This document shows positions 25,593 to 62,987 of a DNA stretch of 64,000 bases, in pieces. Position numbers and translations under genes: made by a program. Within the stretch, counting starts at the first letter, position 1; the number at the start of each line of letters is the position of its first letter. Source of the DNA: a virus; the IMG/VR virus record IMGVR_UViG_3300030099_004448, positions 62,001 through 126,000 of that record. One strand, 5' to 3'. Under the pieces are notes generated by a model. The model was not told the DNA's origin, did not search any database, and saw only the letters and a program-made list of their open reading frames with translations.

Positions 25593-27140
25593 ATGCCTTG
25601 GTTGAGTTTATCAATATTGTTTCCAATTACTGCCGCACTTGGCATTCCTCTTCTACCAGATAAGGGAGATGGAAAAGTTGTTCGGTGGTATGGATTATCA
25701 ATCACATTAATCACGTTTTTAATTACTGTTGCTGGGTATATCAATGGGTATGATCCCTCAGTAAGCGATCTACAAATGTCCGAGAGGATTAGTTGGTTGC
25801 CTGAACTGGGTCTAACCTGGTCTGTGGGTGCAGACGGTCTATCGATGCCTCTCATTCTTCTGACAAGTTTTATCACCAGTCTTGCAGCACTCGCTGCATG
25901 GCCTCTTAGATTCAAACCAAAATTATTTTTCTTCCTGCTATTACTTATGGATGGTGGGCAGATTATGGTTTTTGCAGTACAGGATCTCATTCTATTTTTC
26001 CTATCCTGGGAACTGGAACTATTACCTGTTTATCTAATGCTTGCGATCTGGGGTGGTAAAAGACGCCAGTACGCTGCAACTAAATTCATCATTTACACTG
26101 CAGGTAGTTCTCTATTCATTCTTATTGCAGGACTTGCAATGGGATTCTGGGCATCAAACGGTTCTCCGAACTTTGAATACACTTATTTGATGAATCAGGG
26201 ATTCCCAAAAAATTTCCAACTTTGGTGTTATGCAGGATTCTTGATTGCCTTTGGTGTCAAACTCCCAATCGTGCCCTTGCACACTTGGTTGCCTGATGCA
26301 CACGGTGAAGCAACTGCACCAGTTCATATGTTGCTTGCAGGTATTCTTTTGAAGATGGGTGGATATGCACTTCTGCGATTCAACTGTCAACTCTTGCCTG
26401 ATGCACATTCCGTATTTGCTCCAGTCCTTATTGTTCTTGGAGTTGTTAATATCATCTATGCGGCATTGACATCATTTGCACAGAGAAATCTCAAACGCAA
26501 GATCGCATATAGTTCGATCAGTCACATGGGATTTGTACTCATTGGTATCGGAAGTTATAGTGTTCTCGGAACCAGTGGTGCGATGCTCCAAATGGTTAGT
26601 CATGGTCTGATTGGTGCATCTCTATTCTTCCTAGTGGGTGCAACATATGACCGAACTCATACTCTCGAACTCGCTGAGATGGGTGGAGTTGGTAAGAGTA
26701 TGAAGATTATGTTTGCGATGTGGGTTGTGTGCTCTATGGCATCCTTGGCACTGCCAGGTATGAGTGGATTTGCGAGTGAACTTATGGTCTTTGCTGGATT
26801 TGCAACTGACACGATGTATTCTATTACTTTCCGTGCATTCATTTGTGTCCTTGCTGCAATCGGTGTGATCTTGACTCCGATTTATCTTCTTTCCATGTTG
26901 CGGGAGATCTTCTTTGGTAAAGAGAACTTGGAACTTGTCAATCATACAAACCTTGTCGATGCAGAACCCAGAGAGATCTACATCATTAGTTGTCTTTTGG
27001 TTCCCATCATTGGAATTGGATTGTTCCCCAGGATTATGACGGATACTTACAAAACCTCCATTGATGCCTTGGTTAACAGGGATAAGATTGCGTTAGTCCG
27101 ACCGCAACTGGTCAGAACATTCACTCCACCAACTGTATAA
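25593..27140 (+). CDS. ndhD: NADH dehydrogenase-like (NDH-1) subunit NdhD, D1 type
   Basis: A complete 515-residue antiporter-like membrane subunit of NDH-1, the complex that takes electrons from ferredoxin, reduces plastoquinone and pumps protons in cyclic electron flow and respiration. Key parts are intact: [18 protein letters not shown] with E140 (the conserved glutamate of TM5), K223 in [18 protein letters not shown] with H230, [17 protein letters not shown], and [20 protein letters not shown]. About 14 hydrophobic segments are visible. The sequence follows cyanobacterial NdhD1 (respiration/cyclic flow), not the CO2-uptake D3/D4 types. It has its own promoter and terminator, a monocistronic metabolic gene. 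No other ndh gene lies in the window. Confidence 0.95.
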
Positions 27141-38510: not shown

Positions 38511-39926
38511 ATGAAATCATTTTCCCAATTTCTTAAAGAAGCCGTAGAAACTTCTGCGTCTGCTCAAGCGAAGAGACTTGGGTTAGAAGGCGATGGTCAT
38601 GGAGACTGGTATGACAAAGATGGAACTCTTGTCGCTAAAACTGTTAGTGGTAAGTTAAAGTTCTTTGGACAAGGTAAGAAGTCAAAAGAAGAGAACAGCA
38701 ATGTAGAGAAACCTACGACATCTAAACCAGATGCTAAGAAATCAGTATCCACCCAGACTCAACCGAAAAAAGTATCTCCAGAAAAACCTGGAGATGCAGA
38801 GGAATCGCAAGAAAAATCAGAGTCTAATGGTGTCGTTATTGTTTTTGGTAGGTTCAATCCTCCGACCATCGGACACGAAAAGTTACTCAATAAAGCTGCA
38901 CAAGAAGCAGAAAAAAACGGATATGAACTAAGAATCTATCCTTCGAGAAGTCAGGATAAGAAAAAGAATCCTCTAGACGCAACTGCTAAGATTGATTATA
39001 TGCGTCAGATGTTCCCCAAGTATGCGGGTAATATTATTGATGATGCAAACTCTAAGACCATCTTCAATGTAATGATTGGTGCAAATGAAGAAGGTCATAA
39101 GAATATGAAGATCATGGTTGGTGCTGACCGTCTTGGCGAGTTCCAAGGTCTAAGTCATAAGTATAATGGTGAACTTTATAACTATGATAATCTAGAAGTA
39201 GTTTCTGCAGGAGATAGAGATCCTGATGCAGAAGGTGCAGAAGGTATGTCTGCATCAAAACTTAGACTTGCAGCGAGTGAAGGTGATTTCAAATCTTTTG
39301 CTAAGGGTGTTCCAAACACACTGAATAATCAGAAGAAAATGGAACTCTACAATACTCTTCGCAAGAGTATGGGTATTAGTGAAACTTGGGAAATTGCTCC
39401 AAAGTTTGACGAAGAGACTTTAAGGAATCGTTATATCAAAGAAGACATTTATTCCATTGGTACTGTTGTAGAAAATATCAATACTGGATTGAAGGGGAAG
39501 GTTTTCAGAAGAGGAACCAATTATGTTATTGCGGTTACTGAAGGTGATGTAATGTTCAAGTCTTGGTTGAGAGATTTGATCGAACATAATGATAAACCTC
39601 ATGAAATTGGAACAGATGAATATAGAAAGTATGTTCAGAAATTAACTCCTGGTCAAAAAATTGCGAGATATAACAAAACTAAAGTTCCTCCCACTATGTC
39701 TGAAGAACCCATAAACCTTAGGGGTAGACGTTTTTTCGGTTTAGGTAGAAAGAATAAGGTTTCAGATTTCAATCATTTGAGATATGGTGGAGATGGATCA
39801 GAAGGTAATGCCGCAAGGAACACTAATAAAAAAGCTCCAGCATATAATTCTCAACAGATGCAATACCCTACGAGGGGACCAAGAAATATTCGCCTAAGAG
39901 GTCCTAACGCTCCCATAGATATCTGA
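38511..39926 (+). CDS. Nucleotidyltransferase with capsid-targeting-like N-terminus
   Basis: A 471-residue protein. The start MKSFSQFLKEA closely resembles the capsid targeting sequence MKTYQEFIAEA of T4 internal proteins, with a gp21-type cut L8-K9-E10/A11. Next comes a 'GDGHGDWYDKDGTLVAKT' motif (27-44), a low-complexity linker, then a nucleotidyltransferase domain from 107: GRFNPPTIGH (113-122, T-x-G-H), and a late GMSASKLRLAAS in place of ISSTxxR. The last 180 residues are basic and unrecognised. It may be packaged in the head and injected; the reaction (adenylyl or cytidylyl transfer) is inferred from the fold. Confidence 0.75.
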   Translation: MKSFSQFLKEAVETSASAQAKRLGLEGDGHGDWYDKDGTLVAKTVSGKLKFFGQGKKSKEENSNVEKPTTSKPDAKKSVSTQTQPKKVSPEKPGDAEESQEKSESNGVVIVFGRFNPPTIGHEKLLNKAAQEAEKNGYELRIYPSRSQDKKKNPLDATAKIDYMRQMFPKYAGNIIDDANSKTIFNVMIGANEEGHKNMKIMVGADRLGEFQGLSHKYNGELYNYDNLEVVSAGDRDPDAEGAEGMSASKLRLAASEGDFKSFAKGVPNTLNNQKKMELYNTLRKSMGISETWEIAPKFDEETLRNRYIKEDIYSIGTVVENINTGLKGKVFRRGTNYVIAVTEGDVMFKSWLRDLIEHNDKPHEIGTDEYRKYVQKLTPGQKIARYNKTKVPPTMSEEPINLRGRRFFGLGRKNKVSDFNHLRYGGDGSEGNAARNTNKKAPAYNSQQMQYPTRGPRNIRLRGPNAPIDI

Positions 39927-39973: not shown

Positions 39974-42001
39974 ATGAAAAGTTGGAATAGTTTTTCTAAA
40001 GAGCTTACCGAGAAAAAAGCTAAGAGAGATTACGACGGTGACGGCACCATCGAAACTGGTTCTAAAGAACATGCGGGGGTAGTTCATAACGCTATCCAAC
40101 GCGCTAAGGGTAAAAAGGCCGACGGTCAAGATACTCGTAAAGAAGAAGTAGAAGGGTTAGAAGAAACCAAACTGGCAGATAAAGCATACTCTAGAGCAAG
40201 AGATGAAGGTGCTCAGAGACGCCGCACCAAAGAATATAAGGATGGTGGTAACAGAAGCACTACTCGTAAAGAGAAGGGACTGTATAGACTTGCCACTGCA
40301 CAACGCAGACAAGATGCTGACCTAGGAAGACAGAAAGAAGTTGATAGGTCTTCTGGAATGGAAGGTCACATGAAGAAATCAGTTGCTAAAAAGGGTAAGT
40401 ATGATTATGGTGCAGTCTTAGATAAGAAAGATCCTAAGAAAAATCCTAAGCACACTGCTAATAAAAGTACTAAAAAGGAAGAAGTAGAACAGTATGTTGA
40501 CTTCCTTATCAACGAAGGATATGATTGTTCTCAACTTACATGGGAAGATGTAACTGCAGAGTATGAGTGTTTAGATGAAGGTCTACGTGATGCAGTAAAG
40601 AACCTTTTGGGTAAGGGGAAGAAAAAAGAAGAGAAAAAACCTGAAAGCAGAGGTGAACAACTTCGTAAGAAATATAATGTTGGACCAGATAAGTCTGATA
40701 CTTCTGCTAAGATGCAAATTCTTAAGAAGACTCGTGCTAAGAAAGAAAGAGACCAAAAAGAGTTTGGTGGTTCAAGATACTCCAAGTCTGTTGCTAAGAA
40801 GTCTGCTGATGCACATGATCGTTATCTGAAAGGTGGTTATAGTAAGTATGGCGCTGATGATGCAAGAGGTAAGGGAAATAAAGCTCGTAAGCGCGCTGAA
40901 GCACTTAAGAAAGAAGAACTGGAACTCCAAGAACTTGACATCAAGGGTGCAGTGACTGGTGCTCTCGATAGAGGTTCCAAGTTCATGAAGAAAAATCCAG
41001 TTGGTAGAGCAATAGGTAATGTACTGAAACCAGTCGGATCTGGTCGTGGAACAACGCGCCCCGCTCCTGGTGCAAGACCTGGAACTCCAGGCGGTGGTGC
41101 AACAACTCGCCCAATGATGAATTCCCATGAACCAGAAGGTGATAACCTTCAGGAGAAACCAGGTGATGGATATCTTGGTCCAACACCAATTCCAAATCCT
41201 ATTAGGATGGCAAAAGATGCGGTTGATGCAACTAATCGCAACAGCCAGAAAAAGGTTGATATGGTAAACAAAACTTTGGGACGTGGTTCTGCTTCAATGC
41301 CAAAAGTTAATTACTTCAACAAAGGTCCTAGTGCTGCGTCAAAACGGTATCTTGGTTTATCTTATGAACCAGAAGGTGGACTAGTAGAAGGTATTCGTGA
41401 CGAAGATGCAGAAAAGGGAACCGAAGAAAGAAAGAAACGCCTTGAGAAAAAGCGTGGACACAAAGTAGATGATCATCCTGAGTATGCAAAAGAGTCCGCA
41501 ACTCCTGGACAACCTGCAGAAAAACTGAAGACTGGACGTAAGATGTTCACCATCCCTGATGAGGAAAGATCTGCAGCTGCTGCACGTCTTAAAGAGAAGG
41601 CTAGAAAGAAGCGTGAAGAAAAAATGAAGGAAGAAGTGAAAGTTGAAACTCCAGTAGTTGAAGAAGCCGAATCTAAGGCACAACAAAGACTGATGGGTCT
41701 TGCACTCTCCGTTAAGAGAGGTGACACTCCAATGTCTTCCGTAACTCCACAAGTTGCGAAAATGGCTAGAGAGATGAAGGAAAAGGATCTCAAGGATTTT
41801 GCAGGAACCAAACATGATGGTCTTCCTGAAAAAGTCAAGAAGGAAGAACCAGAAGTTTCCTCACCTTTGGTTGAGTCTCTAGTTGAAAGTGCTGTACAAA
41901 GAATGACAGCAAAAGCAAGAAGAGAAACTGCCGCAGATAAAAGACTTAATCGTCAAGCTTCATCTGCACAGCAGAGAGCGGAGTTAAACGCAAAAAAGTA
42001 A
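39974..42001 (+). CDS. Putative internal head protein, frame-0 product
   Basis: A 675-residue, highly charged, low-complexity protein. MKSWNSFSKELTE/K at the start looks like a second capsid targeting sequence. About eleven (L/I)xE tripeptides, the gp21 protease preference, are spread along the chain (E13, E64, E181, E202, E320, E394, E472, E541, E619, E634, E638). A DGDGTIE calcium-loop-like segment is at 21-27. These features fit a packaged protein cut into basic fragments, like T4 internal peptides. The stop is directly preceded by A AAA AAG and followed by a hairpin, so a fraction of ribosomes probably shift to -1 and continue to 43002. Confidence 0.7.
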   Translation: MKSWNSFSKELTEKKAKRDYDGDGTIETGSKEHAGVVHNAIQRAKGKKADGQDTRKEEVEGLEETKLADKAYSRARDEGAQRRRTKEYKDGGNRSTTRKEKGLYRLATAQRRQDADLGRQKEVDRSSGMEGHMKKSVAKKGKYDYGAVLDKKDPKKNPKHTANKSTKKEEVEQYVDFLINEGYDCSQLTWEDVTAEYECLDEGLRDAVKNLLGKGKKKEEKKPESRGEQLRKKYNVGPDKSDTSAKMQILKKTRAKKERDQKEFGGSRYSKSVAKKSADAHDRYLKGGYSKYGADDARGKGNKARKRAEALKKEELELQELDIKGAVTGALDRGSKFMKKNPVGRAIGNVLKPVGSGRGTTRPAPGARPGTPGGGATTRPMMNSHEPEGDNLQEKPGDGYLGPTPIPNPIRMAKDAVDATNRNSQKKVDMVNKTLGRGSASMPKVNYFNKGPSAASKRYLGLSYEPEGGLVEGIRDEDAEKGTEERKKRLEKKRGHKVDDHPEYAKESATPGQPAEKLKTGRKMFTIPDEERSAAAARLKEKARKKREEKMKEEVKVETPVVEEAESKAQQRLMGLALSVKRGDTPMSSVTPQVAKMAREMKEKDLKDFAGTKHDGLPEKVKKEEPEVSSPLVESLVESAVQRMTAKARRETAADKRLNRQASSAQQRAELNAKK

Positions 42002-42036
42002 AACCCTCTGAGAAACCTACTTCAGGTTCTCAGAGG
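41980..42036 (+). other. -1 programmed ribosomal frameshift site
   Basis: Elements seen in order: GGAG (41980-41983), 8 bases, slippery heptamer A AAA AAG (41992-41998) in the frame of the upstream gene, its TAA stop (41999-42001), then 6 bases after the heptamer a hairpin CCTCTGAGAA / TTCTCAGAGG (42005-42014 / 42027-42036) extended by CCT/AGG around an ACTTC loop, with one bulged A. This is the same layout as E. coli dnaX (Shine-Dalgarno-like element, A AAA AAG, spacer, stem-loop). The -1 frame is open to 43002. Confidence 0.9.
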
Positions 42037-43002
42037 AAATCTAGAGCTAGACCTCTTTCTGATGATGAAATAGAACAGAAGAAAAAACAGTCGGTTGGAT
42101 TCCAAGCGACCAAGTACCGTTCTGATGCTTTGGTGAAGAAGGCTAAAATTGAAACAAAAGGGAAAATCAAAGGTGAAAAAATAAAGTCCGAAAGACAAAA
42201 AGCTAGATTAGATGATGCTAGGGCTAACAGAGAACGTAAAAAAGAAGAATCAAGAGAAAAAGAAAAAAAGGCCAGAGAACAGTTTAAAGATCAGAAAAAA
42301 GTAAAGAAGGCTGCAGATAAAGCAGAAAAAGCTCAGTCTGCTGCAGATAAACAGAAAGAAAAATCCAAAGCCTACGCAAGTGGCATGTCAAGTGGAAGTC
42401 TCAAAACCGCCTCTTCTACTGGTTCGGGAACAGGTCTAAGTGATACCGCTAGTGCAATGGCGTCTAACTTGGGTACTGTTGCTGTCAGAGCTGCAAACGC
42501 AGGTGCTGCGGTTGGTTCTGCAATTAGAGCAAAACAAAAACAAAACAAAGCAGACAAACTTGCTAAGAAGGCTAAGAAGAGAGAAAAAAAGTTTGACAAG
42601 AAATATAATGAAGAAGTCTTCTATGATTGGAGAGAAGAGTTTCTGCATGAAGTAGAAAAGAGAGGTGACAAAAAAGAAAAAAAGGTCATCGATGTAATGA
42701 GAGGAAAGAACCAAATTGAGTTCAATCCTGTTACTGAAGCAAATGTTTCAGAAGACATGAGTGGTATGTCCCAGAAGTCTGGCGACAAACGTCCTACAGA
42801 TAAAGGTGCGGGTATGACCGCAAAGGGAGTCGCTAAATACAATCGCCGCACTGGTGGTAATTTAAAGACTGCTGTTACCACTCCACCTTCTAAGTTAGAC
42901 CCAGACTCAAAGGCTGCAAAACGTAGAAAGAGTTTCTGTGCTCGTTCTAAAGGTTGGACTGGTGAAAGAGGAAAGGCTGCACGTCGTCGTTGGAATTGCT
43001 GA
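41998..43002 (+). CDS. -1 frame extension of the internal head protein
   Basis: The 334-codon extension reached by -1 frameshifting; the fused product would have 1009 residues. The first in-frame start of any kind with reasonable length is GTG 42130 without a ribosome binding site, which would give 290 residues, so independent initiation is less likely. The extension is very basic (long Lys/Arg/Glu helices from 45 to 110), then an Ala/Gly/Ser-rich stretch, and a compact C-terminal motif SKAAKRRKSFCARSKGW followed by ARRRWNC, which I recognise as recurring at the end of large T4-like phage proteins. Probably nucleic-acid binding in the head. Confidence 0.75.
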   Translation, partial: VKPSEKPTSGSQRKSRARPLSDDEIEQKKKQSVGFQATKYRSDALVKKAKIETKGKIKGEKIKSERQKARLDDARANRERKKEESREKEKKAREQFKDQKKVKKAADKAEKAQSAADKQKEKSKAYASGMSSGSLKTASSTGSGTGLSDTASAMASNLGTVAVRAANAGAAVGSAIRAKQKQNKADKLAKKAKKREKKFDKKYNEEVFYDWREEFLHEVEKRGDKKEKKVIDVMRGKNQIEFNPVTEANVSEDMSGMSQKSGDKRPTDKGAGMTAKGVAKYNRRTGGNLKTAVTTPPSKLDPDSKAAKRRKSFCARSKGWTGERGKAARRRWNC

Positions 43003-43008
43003 TCGTTT

Positions 43009-44439
43009 ATGAAACAACTGAATGAATACGATGAGGTTCTAAAAAAACCTCATCCTCTCTTTGTCTATAAAAATTATATTAACGATATAAAATTTCCAAC
43101 CCGAGAAATCATTAAGGAAAACTCGGAACATAAAATATTTGCTAAACAGGCAACTATGGATCTTCCCGAAGGAGATGAGTTGTTTGTTTCTTTTTGTAGT
43201 CAAAAATATTTTGAGTCTGTTCTAAAAGAGTTTAAGTTATTTTCAAAAGTCAGACCAAAATTATTCAAAAAGGTAATTGATGGTGACTATGAATTTGGTA
43301 AGGATGTAAAAGTCAAAGCCGAATATTGTATTAATAATGCAAGAACTTACTTTGACAAAGAACCTAATATAAGAGAACCCGAAAATATATTTGATCTAAT
43401 TATTTTTGGTGACGACGCTGTTGACTTTGAAATCCATGAGTTGGATATGAAAGGTAATGATGTCAACTTACAAAAGATAGAGTGTGAAAAAAATACTGCT
43501 ATTTTATTTCCATTTGTTCCTTCATCTTGGCATCGACAGAGAATAAAAGAATTTGATGGAAAGAGTGTCAGGATAAGTTTTATTGTGGATGATTCGTTGC
43601 AAGAAATAAATCCAAAAATTTGTAGTCAAAGAGTTCAACAAAAAGCAAGCATCCTACCTAAAGATGAACAGGTCGGTGAAGATCTTGGTATAAAAAGAGA
43701 GGGAATATTCGATCCATGGGGAACTTACTTGTTTGATGATTATGTGAATTGGGATAATTATGTTGAACTAGAAAAAGACTTTCCTTCTTTTGAAAAAGTG
43801 ATGCAGATACATGCATCTGGTAAAGATGTTGATGGAAAGTATGATTCAGTATTCGCTTCTGCTTTTGATGAACGAGTTGTGTTGAGTCCTATCTGGCAAA
43901 AATTTGTGAAATATCATACGAGTAAATTTTATTTCCAAGATATATTTGAAAAATTTGATGGTATTTGGAAAACTTGGAGACCCGAACTGAGAGAAAAAAT
44001 TTATTCTAGAGATTATACTATAGGATATATGCACAGCAAGAAGGACACTGCAGAATCGGAAACTCCAGATATAATGTATGAACTTCTATTTACCCATGAC
44101 CTTGAATGTATGAATCAACATGGTCTTCATGTTCATGTTGATAGGGATGATAAGGTGTTTCAGTCAATGATTTATTTCCGACATCCCGAAGACAGATGTA
44201 ATGATGCAAATCTTCAATTACATCATTGTCATGAGTGGGGTAATTATTTTCCAGGAATTGTAGATAAAAAAGTTGATTATATTTCAAATAGATCTGTAAC
44301 ACTTCCATTTACACCAAAGTCATATCACTCCGTTTCTCCTGGTGATAGAACAGGAAATCCGTATACAAGAAAGATGGTTAACATTATGTTTAGAATTAGT
44401 CCAGATTTGCGTCAGTTAGATGGGGACTTTAGAAGATAA
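43009..44439 (+). CDS. Double DSBH 2OG-Fe(II) oxygenase-like protein
   Basis: A 476-residue protein with two beta-helix-like halves. The C-terminal half has H-x-D in LHVHVDRDDK near 379, MIYFRHPED, LPFTPKSYHSVSPGDR with the distal His near 447 and a following RKMVNIMFRIS, so it is probably catalytic. The N-terminal half (about 120-210) has FDLIIFGDDAVDFEIHELDM, AILFPFVPSSWHRQRI and VRISFIVDD, a related fold without a clear H-x-D. It lies 7 bases after the frameshifted gene and is probably co-transcribed with it. Confidence 0.65.
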   Translation: MKQLNEYDEVLKKPHPLFVYKNYINDIKFPTREIIKENSEHKIFAKQATMDLPEGDELFVSFCSQKYFESVLKEFKLFSKVRPKLFKKVIDGDYEFGKDVKVKAEYCINNARTYFDKEPNIREPENIFDLIIFGDDAVDFEIHELDMKGNDVNLQKIECEKNTAILFPFVPSSWHRQRIKEFDGKSVRISFIVDDSLQEINPKICSQRVQQKASILPKDEQVGEDLGIKREGIFDPWGTYLFDDYVNWDNYVELEKDFPSFEKVMQIHASGKDVDGKYDSVFASAFDERVVLSPIWQKFVKYHTSKFYFQDIFEKFDGIWKTWRPELREKIYSRDYTIGYMHSKKDTAESETPDIMYELLFTHDLECMNQHGLHVHVDRDDKVFQSMIYFRHPEDRCNDANLQLHHCHEWGNYFPGIVDKKVDYISNRSVTLPFTPKSYHSVSPGDRTGNPYTRKMVNIMFRISPDLRQLDGDFRR

Positions 44440-57667: not shown

Positions 57668-57740
57668 ATCGAGACAAAGTGTTTCGATTTATTACAGACT
57701 CATGTCGAGAGTCTTCTCATCTGCGGGTAAACACTCCGCA
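57668..57740 (+). ncRNA. Structured 5' leader with three stem-loops
   Basis: Three successive inverted repeats: ATCGAGACA/TGTTTCGAT (57668-57676/57680-57688, one G-T pair), AGACTC/GAGTCT (57696-57701/57709-57714) and TGCGG/CCGCA (57722-57726/57736-57740). They fill the roughly 95-base leader between the dual promoter and the GAGG ribosome binding site of the secreted protein. They could stabilise the mRNA or act as a regulatory leader. Confidence 0.5.
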
Positions 57741-57761
57741 AGTAAACTACGAGGTATTAAA

Positions 57762-58136
57762 ATGTTGAAAACGACTATCGCTGCAGCAGCTGCTGCAATC
57801 GCCTTTGCACCCGCTGCAGCCCTAGCCGGTCCATACGTTAACGTCGAGACCAATGCTGGCTGGACTGGATCTGATTACAACGGAGCCGCGACTGATTTCC
57901 ACGTTGGCTACGAAGGCGCTATCGGAGATGGTGCATCTTACTACGTCCAAGGTGGCGCTACTCTTCTGAGCCCTGACGGTGGCGACAGTGACACTGTTCC
58001 TTCTGGTAAGGCTGGTCTTGGTCTCGCCGTAACCGATTCCCTTGGAGCGTATGGTGAAGTTTCATTTGTCGGTTCAGGTGATGACGACATCGACCGTGGA
58101 TACGGCGGTAAGCTGGGTGTTAAGTACTCCTTCTGA
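57762..58136 (+). CDS. Secreted beta-rich (porin-like) small protein
   Basis: A 124-residue protein with a clear signal peptide (MLKTTIAAAAAAIAFAPAAA then LA/GPYVN). The mature 102 residues alternate as in outer-membrane beta-barrel strands (YVNVETNAGWTGSDY, DFHVGYEGAIGDGASYYVQGG, LGAYGEVSFVGSGD, GGKLGVKYSF) with a terminal aromatic residue. Marine cyanobacteria encode similar proteins, so this is probably host-derived. GAGG lies 7 bases before ATG 57762; a longer frame from 57702 covers the leader hairpins and is not favoured. Codons are C-rich, suggesting high expression. Confidence 0.75.
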   Translation: MLKTTIAAAAAAIAFAPAAALAGPYVNVETNAGWTGSDYNGAATDFHVGYEGAIGDGASYYVQGGATLLSPDGGDSDTVPSGKAGLGLAVTDSLGAYGEVSFVGSGDDDIDRGYGGKLGVKYSF

Positions 58137-61464: not shown

Positions 61465-61641
61465 ATGAGTCAATTCTGTTTCACTGATCTCAGTGATCAG
61501 CAACGTCGTCTCCTAATTGATGCAGTATGGATGCGTCAAAGACAATACATAGCGGGAGATAGAATGTTCCGAGAGTATGGAAAGATGCTCGATGATCTCC
61601 GTGAGGGGTTTGAAGATTATGTTCCTGGGAAGTATAGATGA
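61465..61641 (+). CDS. Small protein, 58 residues
   Basis: A short gene between PTOX and zwf, ending in an ATGA overlap with zwf. SQFCFTDLSDQQRRLLIDAV, WMRQRQYIAGDRMFREYGKM and LDDLREGFEDYVPGKYR form a compact helical protein. No function known; the coupling to zwf supports translation. Confidence 0.6.
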   Translation: MSQFCFTDLSDQQRRLLIDAVWMRQRQYIAGDRMFREYGKMLDDLREGFEDYVPGKYR

Positions 61642-62987
61642 GTAGACTTGTTATATTCGGTGCGACAGGAGATCTTTGTCGCCGTAAATTGATTCCATCA
61701 TTACATAAACTTTGGGAGAAAAAATTACTTCCAACTGATTTTGTAGTTACTGGGTGTGCAAGGAGAGAGCCAACTAGAGATCAATGGATTGCATCTCTTG
61801 GTGGAGATTATCCCGAAGAATTTTTACATCTTCTAGACTATCAATCTGCAGATTTGTCTAGAGTAGATACTTTGAAGAATCTAAAACCAGCACCAGAAAC
61901 AGTATCTAGTGTTATTGAAGATACTACTTATTTTCTGTCAGTGCCACCAGAGAGATATGCAGATGCAATACAAAATCTCAAAGAAGCGGGACTTGTAGAT
62001 GATCAAGAAAGATCCAGAGTTATTATTGAAAAACCTTTTGGGACCGATTATAAATCTGCTGATAGTTTACAGTCTGTGGTGGGGAGATGTTTACGCGAGA
62101 AACAAGTATATCGCATTGACCATTATCTTGGTAAAGATACTGTTAATAATATCCTTGCCACTAGGTTTAGCAATATACTTCTTGAACCACTTTGGAACAG
62201 GAATTACGTAGAGGAAGTTCAAATCTATGCAACCGAAACTATTGGTTGTGAAGGTAGATCTCAATACTACGAAACTGCAGGTGCAGTCAGAGATATGTTA
62301 CAGAACCATATGCTTCAGGTTCTTGCATTGATTGCAATGGAAGCGCCATGTAAAATGGACGCTAAAGAGATTCGTAGAGAGAAGACAAAGGTTCTTGCTG
62401 CATCCAGATTGGGCACTAAACTAATCTGTGGTCAGTACAATGGATATAGAGATGAAGAGGGTGTAGATCCTGAATCAAGCACTCCAACCTTTGTTGCGGG
62501 TGATATTTACATTGATAACTGGAGATGGGAGGGTGTTCCATTTCACTTCATGACTGGTAAGAAAATGCCTTATCAGTGTGTTGAAGTAGTTGTTAAACTC
62601 AAGGCTCCACCACAACAATTATTTGAAGGTCATGAATACAATGACCGTATCGTAATGAGACTTCAACCACATCCACACTTCGATATCAGAATTGATATGA
62701 AGGCGCCAGGATTTAAAAATGATGTAGAGACTGCAACTCTTACACATCGTTATCCTGATTGGTTGGGAGTTGACGGGTATGAAAAACTACTGTATGATGC
62801 TATACAAGGAAACCAATCCAACTTCGTTCACTCCGAAGAAGTATTAGAATCCTGGAGAATCGTTGATGATCTTCTCTGCACTGGAGATAAGTGCCCTATC
62901 ACGACTATTCCTTATTTGTATAATTATGGTTCTTGGGGCCCTCAACAAAAAACAGATTCAATTACTAATTGGGATTATCCCGCATGA
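61638..62987 (+). CDS. zwf: Glucose-6-phosphate 1-dehydrogenase
   Basis: A 449-residue enzyme, first step of the oxidative pentose phosphate pathway, making NADPH. Nucleotide-binding GATGDLCRRK near 9-18, VIIEKPFG near 130 and the active-site RIDHYLGKDTV near 158-168 with the catalytic His-rich region, and the C-terminal beta domain with RIVMRLQPHP. Intact compared with bacterial enzymes (about 480-500 residues), slightly short at the N-terminus. Followed by gnd after one short gene. Confidence 0.97.
   Translation: MSRLVIFGATGDLCRRKLIPSLHKLWEKKLLPTDFVVTGCARREPTRDQWIASLGGDYPEEFLHLLDYQSADLSRVDTLKNLKPAPETVSSVIEDTTYFLSVPPERYADAIQNLKEAGLVDDQERSRVIIEKPFGTDYKSADSLQSVVGRCLREKQVYRIDHYLGKDTVNNILATRFSNILLEPLWNRNYVEEVQIYATETIGCEGRSQYYETAGAVRDMLQNHMLQVLALIAMEAPCKMDAKEIRREKTKVLAASRLGTKLICGQYNGYRDEEGVDPESSTPTFVAGDIYIDNWRWEGVPFHFMTGKKMPYQCVEVVVKLKAPPQQLFEGHEYNDRIVMRLQPHPHFDIRIDMKAPGFKNDVETATLTHRYPDWLGVDGYEKLLYDAIQGNQSNFVHSEEVLESWRIVDDLLCTGDKCPITTIPYLYNYGSWGPQQKTDSITNWDYPA

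Follow-up and report, generated by a model that had tools for sequence, protein, structure and literature searches.

A probable dnaX-type -1 programmed frameshift extends a basic mosaic protein in a T4-like cyanomyovirus

Judged from its sequence, the end of a 675-residue ORF in a T4-like cyanomyovirus is very probably joined to a 334-codon extension in the -1 frame by programmed ribosomal frameshifting of the dnaX type. The junction lies in a window of 64,000 nucleotides, the whole stretch of DNA that was analysed, which belongs to an IMG/VR virus record of 238,937 bp (Table 1). An earlier note on this DNA had claimed a gene ending A AAA AAG TAA at 42001, a GGAG 8 bases upstream of the heptamer, a 13-bp hairpin 6 bases downstream, a -1 frame open for 334 codons without a good start, and products of 675 and 1009 residues. 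All of these elements were recovered: the zero frame closes with GC, the heptamer A_AAA_AAG in zero-frame phase and the adjoining TAA, the stem consists of 10 + 3 pairs around a bulged A, and the lengths of the ORFs agree with a normal-termination product of 675 residues and a predicted fusion, after the slip, of 1009.

Table 1. Features of the junction, of the encoded proteins and of associated genes (window positions, unless another sequence is named).
Feature	Position	Strand	Remarks
NMNAT/cytidylyltransferase-like neighbour	38511..39926	+	Pfam PF01467; N-terminus MKSFSQFLKEA
Zero-frame ORF	39974..42001	+	675 aa, ends AKK and stop; basic mosaic protein; normal-termination product
N-terminal peptide MKSWNSFSKELTE	39974..40012	+	Resembles T4 capsid-targeting propeptides; aromatics at 4 and 7, then L-T-E
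DUF3008 (PF11450)	41666..41836	+	Zero-frame residues 565-621; Pfam E 1.6e-13
Open -1 frame	41950..43002	+	334 codons post-slip (VKPSE...RRRWNC); TGA at 43000
GGAG, Shine-Dalgarno-like	41980..41983	+	8 nt before heptamer
Slippery heptamer A_AAA_AAG	41992..41998	+	Kept in L001, L002, L003, L006
Zero-frame stop TAA	41999..42001	+	Abuts heptamer
Putative stimulatory hairpin	42005..42036	+	10 + 3 bp, one bulged A, loop ACTTC; starts 6 nt past heptamer
DUF6321 (PF19846)	42799..42966	+	Residues 269-324 of -1 extension P0001; Pfam E 7.5e-12
gp21-type prohead protease, same genome	G000:60999-61445		PF03420, E 3.2e-34

The site stands out within its own genome. Five A_AAA_AAG sites occur in frame among the 17,781 codons of the window, and the one at 41992 is alone in directly preceding the stop of its gene and giving access to a long -1 frame; at the remaining four, that frame is open for 3-20 codons. 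Likewise, AAAAAAGTAR is found nine times in the 239-kb record and only the copy at the junction ends a long ORF. The hairpin has a predicted folding energy of -19.7 kcal/mol (z -3.3 to -3.9), and no covariance model of the Rfam frameshift elements matched near any gathering score. In the -1 frame, nothing like a start codon comes before TTG at 42130, GTG at 42133 and ATG at 42385, and a Shine-Dalgarno sequence precedes none of the three.

Protein searches of IMG/VR identified the same junction (family F1) in four further contigs, L001, L002, L003 and L006. The earlier note had expected heptamer, stem and GGAG to be conserved among relatives; all four indeed carry AAAAAAG-TAA as well as a hairpin, 6 nt past the heptamer, with an energy of about -19 kcal/mol, and the hairpin z across the five members ranges from -2.1 to -4.8, while the GGAG expectation held in part, with GGAG at 8 nt in four F1 contigs (the window included, thus three of the four relatives) and GGGG in L003. 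The zero frame of L003 is still closely related (dS about 0.25-0.37), but directly past the stop the relationship ends; even so, its stem is rebuilt with three compensated pairs (one U-A became C-G, and G-C replaced C-G at two positions) and one broken outer pair. This pairing was done by hand, since MAFFT misaligned L003 across the hairpin, which is also why RNAalifold reported no covariation. In L006, a 9-nt insertion within the hairpin preserves both the -1 frame and a stem.

Both frames carry the mark of purifying selection. For the last 120 zero-frame codons dN/dS is 0.08-0.29, and over the opening 42 codons in the -1 frame, ahead of any start, it is 0.09-0.45 among the four alignable F1 members, with small counts; the same 42-codon stretch read in the zero frame gives dN/dS of at least 0.75. 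The head of the -1 frame of L003 is unalignable with the other members and was left out of the -1 estimate. A search of phage records with the F1 junction DNA returned a single match, to 67 bases of DUF6321, and no comparable junction is present in the regions considered of P-SSM4, S-SSM7, S-IOM18, S-CRM01, S-SCSM1, AG-345-E15, S-CAM7, S-SSM4, S-SRM01, S-SCSM2R, P-TIM68 and S-N03.

At least three families of such junctions exist in related cyanomyovirus genes, in about 25 contigs. All junctions seen are of the -1 type, with the stop at most a few codons past A_AAA_AAG or A_AAA_AAA; the scan was limited to -1 sites, and no +1 junction was seen. The second family (F2, 12 contigs), reached through the DUF6321 domain of the downstream protein, has an upstream protein ending in INPEIKTEAAKAPVKK, then AAAAAAG-TAG, and then a -1 frame reading KKVEKKEPKKAMDAGARGRRLL that extends to DUF6321 and further modules. 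The heptamer is in zero-frame phase in all F2 contigs, the base before it being changed in L232. In L234 the flanks are quite different, with GCATCAGC in place of GCACCCGT and a TAA stop; the heptamer still abuts the stop there, and a 6-bp hairpin lies 3 nt past it. Length changes directly past the F2 heptamer amount to 3 or 12 nt and preserve the -1 frame, and the Shine-Dalgarno-like element of this family is a GGAGG at 16 nt. The third family (F3, 8 contigs) has A_AAA_AAA inside nine consecutive As, and the stop lies 1-2 codons further on. Because the pattern scan for F3 demanded at least nine As and is therefore biased, only members from the protein search are an unbiased sample; one such relative, L183, with 38% identity, retains both the A9 run and the stop although the flanking sequence differs. 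A strong downstream hairpin is absent from F2, which has no common one, and from F3, and neither F2 nor F3 junction DNA matched phage records. The recurrence of the junction in these two families without a strong hairpin suggests that the constant part is the heptamer abutting the stop rather than the hairpin, which may be dispensable, or else the mechanisms may differ between families.

The F2 family also contains natural fusions. In L045 and L046 the F2 junction is in one open frame, both retaining GTAAAAAAG, L046 without the stop-bearing bases and L045 with a linker in their place, which argues that the fusion protein is a real architecture in F2; no in-frame fusion was found for F1 itself. 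A protein search with the F2 downstream module gave 54 loci, at which the module is reached by the frameshift in 11, in frame with an upstream part in 24 and encoded by a separate gene in 16, with 3 cut by contig ends. These three states suggest that the state of the module is evolutionarily interchangeable. The separate genes mostly start with an ATG overlapping the upstream stop (ATGA), and some have an MKSF(S/A)DF start, an N-terminus of the type that the upstream partners have. A group of such genes was seen in L202-L211 and L215 near positions 2923-2947, starting MKSF(S/A/K)DF with a capsid-targeting-like N-terminus and, in most, with the ATGA overlap.

The separate F2 genes, together with an ATG that some F2 members have roughly 10 codons past the beginning of the -1 frame, speak for a different reading of the junction, in which the -1 part would be a gene of its own, with translation depending on reinitiation after termination or on an internal start at TTG 42130 or GTG 42133. 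We regard this as unlikely, since TTG 42130 lacks a Shine-Dalgarno sequence, the earliest start of any kind in the -1 frame of L003 comes 121 codons in, and no start codon is common to the members of F1 or of F2; nor is any start conserved near 42130, where the earlier note had considered that the downstream part might begin alone. Moreover, the -1 frame is constrained and its length changes preserve the frame ahead of any start, and F2 has in-frame fusions. Still less probable is that RNA polymerase slipping on the A run would join the frames, with no slip of the ribosome. The A9 run of F3 does have a length for which transcriptional slippage is known in bacteria (PMC5009743), but at the window site and in F2 the run stops at six As, with a G next, and the downstream hairpin and heptamer phase conserved in F1 both implicate the ribosome. 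A sequencing error, also raised in the earlier note, or a decaying, split gene is hardly credible: mosaic low-complexity genes mutate fast and in-frame relatives exist, but about 25 independent contigs of three families share the same -1 relation, which excludes an error, and have the stop close past the slippery run, the stop is conserved and both frames are under purifying selection.

Programmed -1 frameshifting thus remains the strongly preferred reading; the analysis shows the signal, its conservation, the coding constraint in two frames and the natural in-frame fusions in the sister family, and leaves slipping and its efficiency as inferences. Ribosomes would pause at the hairpin near the end of the ORF, possibly also through pairing of GGAG with the anti-Shine-Dalgarno sequence, and in a fraction of them the two lysyl-tRNAs would re-pair from A_AAA_AAG to AAA_AAA. 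The slipped ribosomes would pass the TAA and read on for a further 334 codons, so that one mRNA would give a fixed ratio of the 675-residue protein and its C-terminally extended 1009-residue form. The site resembles dnaX-type frameshifting in its heptamer and phase, in the stem-loop 6 nt downstream and possibly in the Shine-Dalgarno-like GGAG upstream, but the GGAG is located 8 nt rather than 10 nt before the heptamer. In E. coli dnaX, furthermore, it is the shorter product that comes from the shifted frame. Here the arrangement would be the opposite, with the shorter form from the zero frame and the longer form from the shift, as has been predicted for dnaX of some bacteria (PMC5009743).

The record has the gene order of a T4-like cyanomyovirus, with, from the left end, scaffold and major capsid-like ORFs, helicase, MazG, the NMNAT/cytidylyltransferase-like gene, the junction genes, primase and ribonucleotide reductase; the order is the same in P-SSM4, S-IOM18, S-SSM4 and S-SCSM1. 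The junction gene is situated between the NMNAT-like gene and the ORF at 43009-44439, near the primase and nrdA/B-type genes. Elsewhere the window contains a 515-residue subunit of a proton-translocating NADH dehydrogenase/Mrp antiporter (25593-27140; Proton_antipo_M, E 1.8e-64), which is unusual for a phage genome. Two further ORFs were judged by eye, one from its translation as a glucose-6-phosphate dehydrogenase-like auxiliary metabolic gene (61638-62987), the other a small ORF with a signal-peptide-like start and an apparent outer-membrane barrel repeat (57702-58136).

The proteins of the junction are basic (24% K+R), modular and of low complexity. No capsid shell domain was detected in the base, zero-frame protein, for which Pfam gave only DUF3008 and the PHROGs matches are of unknown function; the predicted structure of DUF6321 is poor (pLDDT 61), and a search for a relative in the PDB returned none. 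The internal proteins of T4 reach the prohead by means of residues 4 and 7 in a capsid-targeting peptide of 10 residues, and gp21 cleaves after L/I-x-E (PMC9026906). The N-terminus of the zero-frame protein fits this in part, with W4 and F7 and with L-T-E at 11-13, not 8-10. Matches to M[KR]x[FWY]xxF in the window are confined to the ORFs starting at 38511 and 39974, and several isolates have genes, either neighbours or homologues, whose N-termini likewise follow M(K/R)x(F/W)xxF; enrichment of [LIVMF]xE or L/I-x-E sites in the window protein was not significant.

Related proteins have been assigned to virions. In S-SCSM1, annotation as virion proteins covers the syntenic NMNAT gp281 (MKSFLQFLKEA...), the protein after it and those bearing DUF3008 and DUF6321, the DUF6321/DUF3008 homologues being gp29 and gp279; this status is the annotation of the record, and the S-SCSM1 paper identified virion proteins by mass spectrometry. 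The DUF6321 protein ORF137 of S-CREM2 is listed in the virion table. The targeting-like N-terminus, the gp21-type protease and the virion homologues together make packaging of the window protein into the head likely. We moderately favour a model in which the N-terminus would target the protein to the head as in T4, the gp21-type protease would cleave it, and the frameshift would meter the amount of the basic DUF6321 module entering the capsid. Provided that targeting works in this way, the dose of the DUF6321 extension would be set by the frameshift, with the upstream targeting peptide carrying it in.

Such a protein would resemble the internal proteins of T4 in its aromatic residues 4 and 7, in belonging to a genome that encodes a prohead protease, and in having neighbours and homologues in virions, although it is far larger, modular and frameshift-extended, its L-T-E stands at 11-13 rather than 8-10 and its targeting is a prediction. 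Virion proteins extended by frameshifting are known from the coat proteins of T7/T3 and Lactobacillus phage A2 and from Listeria phage PSA (PMC5009743). As in those phages, a short and a C-terminally extended form of a (here probable) virion protein would be made, and related extensions also occur without frameshifting; however, they extend shell or tail-shaft proteins, with an Ig-like extension in T3 and A2, whereas the base protein here is a basic mosaic without a shell domain and its extension ends in DUF6321. The gpG/gpGT tail assembly chaperone of lambda likewise uses a -1 frameshift to make two products at a set ratio, as is predicted here, but the present junction is not beside a tape-measure gene, its ORFs are much larger and its homologues are found in virions. 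A different gene with a comparable layout was seen on the reverse strand of L129 at 3935 (IMGVR_UViG_3300017788_001292), where an ORF for a C39-type peptidase (PF13529) ends in GTAAAAAAGTAG, followed by a GC-rich hairpin (GGCAGTG/CACTGCC), and the -1 frame, which lacks a start codon, codes for a phage lysozyme (PF00959). The apparent product is a lysin of two domains joined by frameshifting, and the gene appears unrelated to the window junction.

Frameshifting at A_AAA_AAG in the -1 direction is classical and known in phages, and its use in T4-like cyanophages is apparently undescribed. In the full texts searched, a collection outside which subscription papers lie, no paper joins programmed frameshifting with cyanophages and none mentions DUF6321, and related searches gave none on such a site by title or abstract. 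Tentatively, and with somewhat more doubt than confidence, the junctions may be seen as instances of a general device in T4-like cyanophages, serving head-packaged, protease-processed mosaic polyproteins: with a targeting peptide on the upstream part, frameshifting would bring a metered share of extra basic modules into the head, in a manner like Gag-Pol but in a DNA phage. Over evolution the modules would switch between in-frame fusion, -1 frameshift and ATGA-coupled separate gene, some of these genes starting with a targeting-like MKSFxDF of their own.

Few viruses of the ocean are as abundant as cyanomyoviruses, whose virions contain large, basic proteins of low complexity. Gene callers split genes of this kind, and a -1 part without a start codon is easily lost in data such as those of IMG/VR. 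Conservation of the frameshift suggests a need for both products at a set ratio, and silent mutation of the heptamer would provide a clean genetic handle on the role of the DUF6321 extension.
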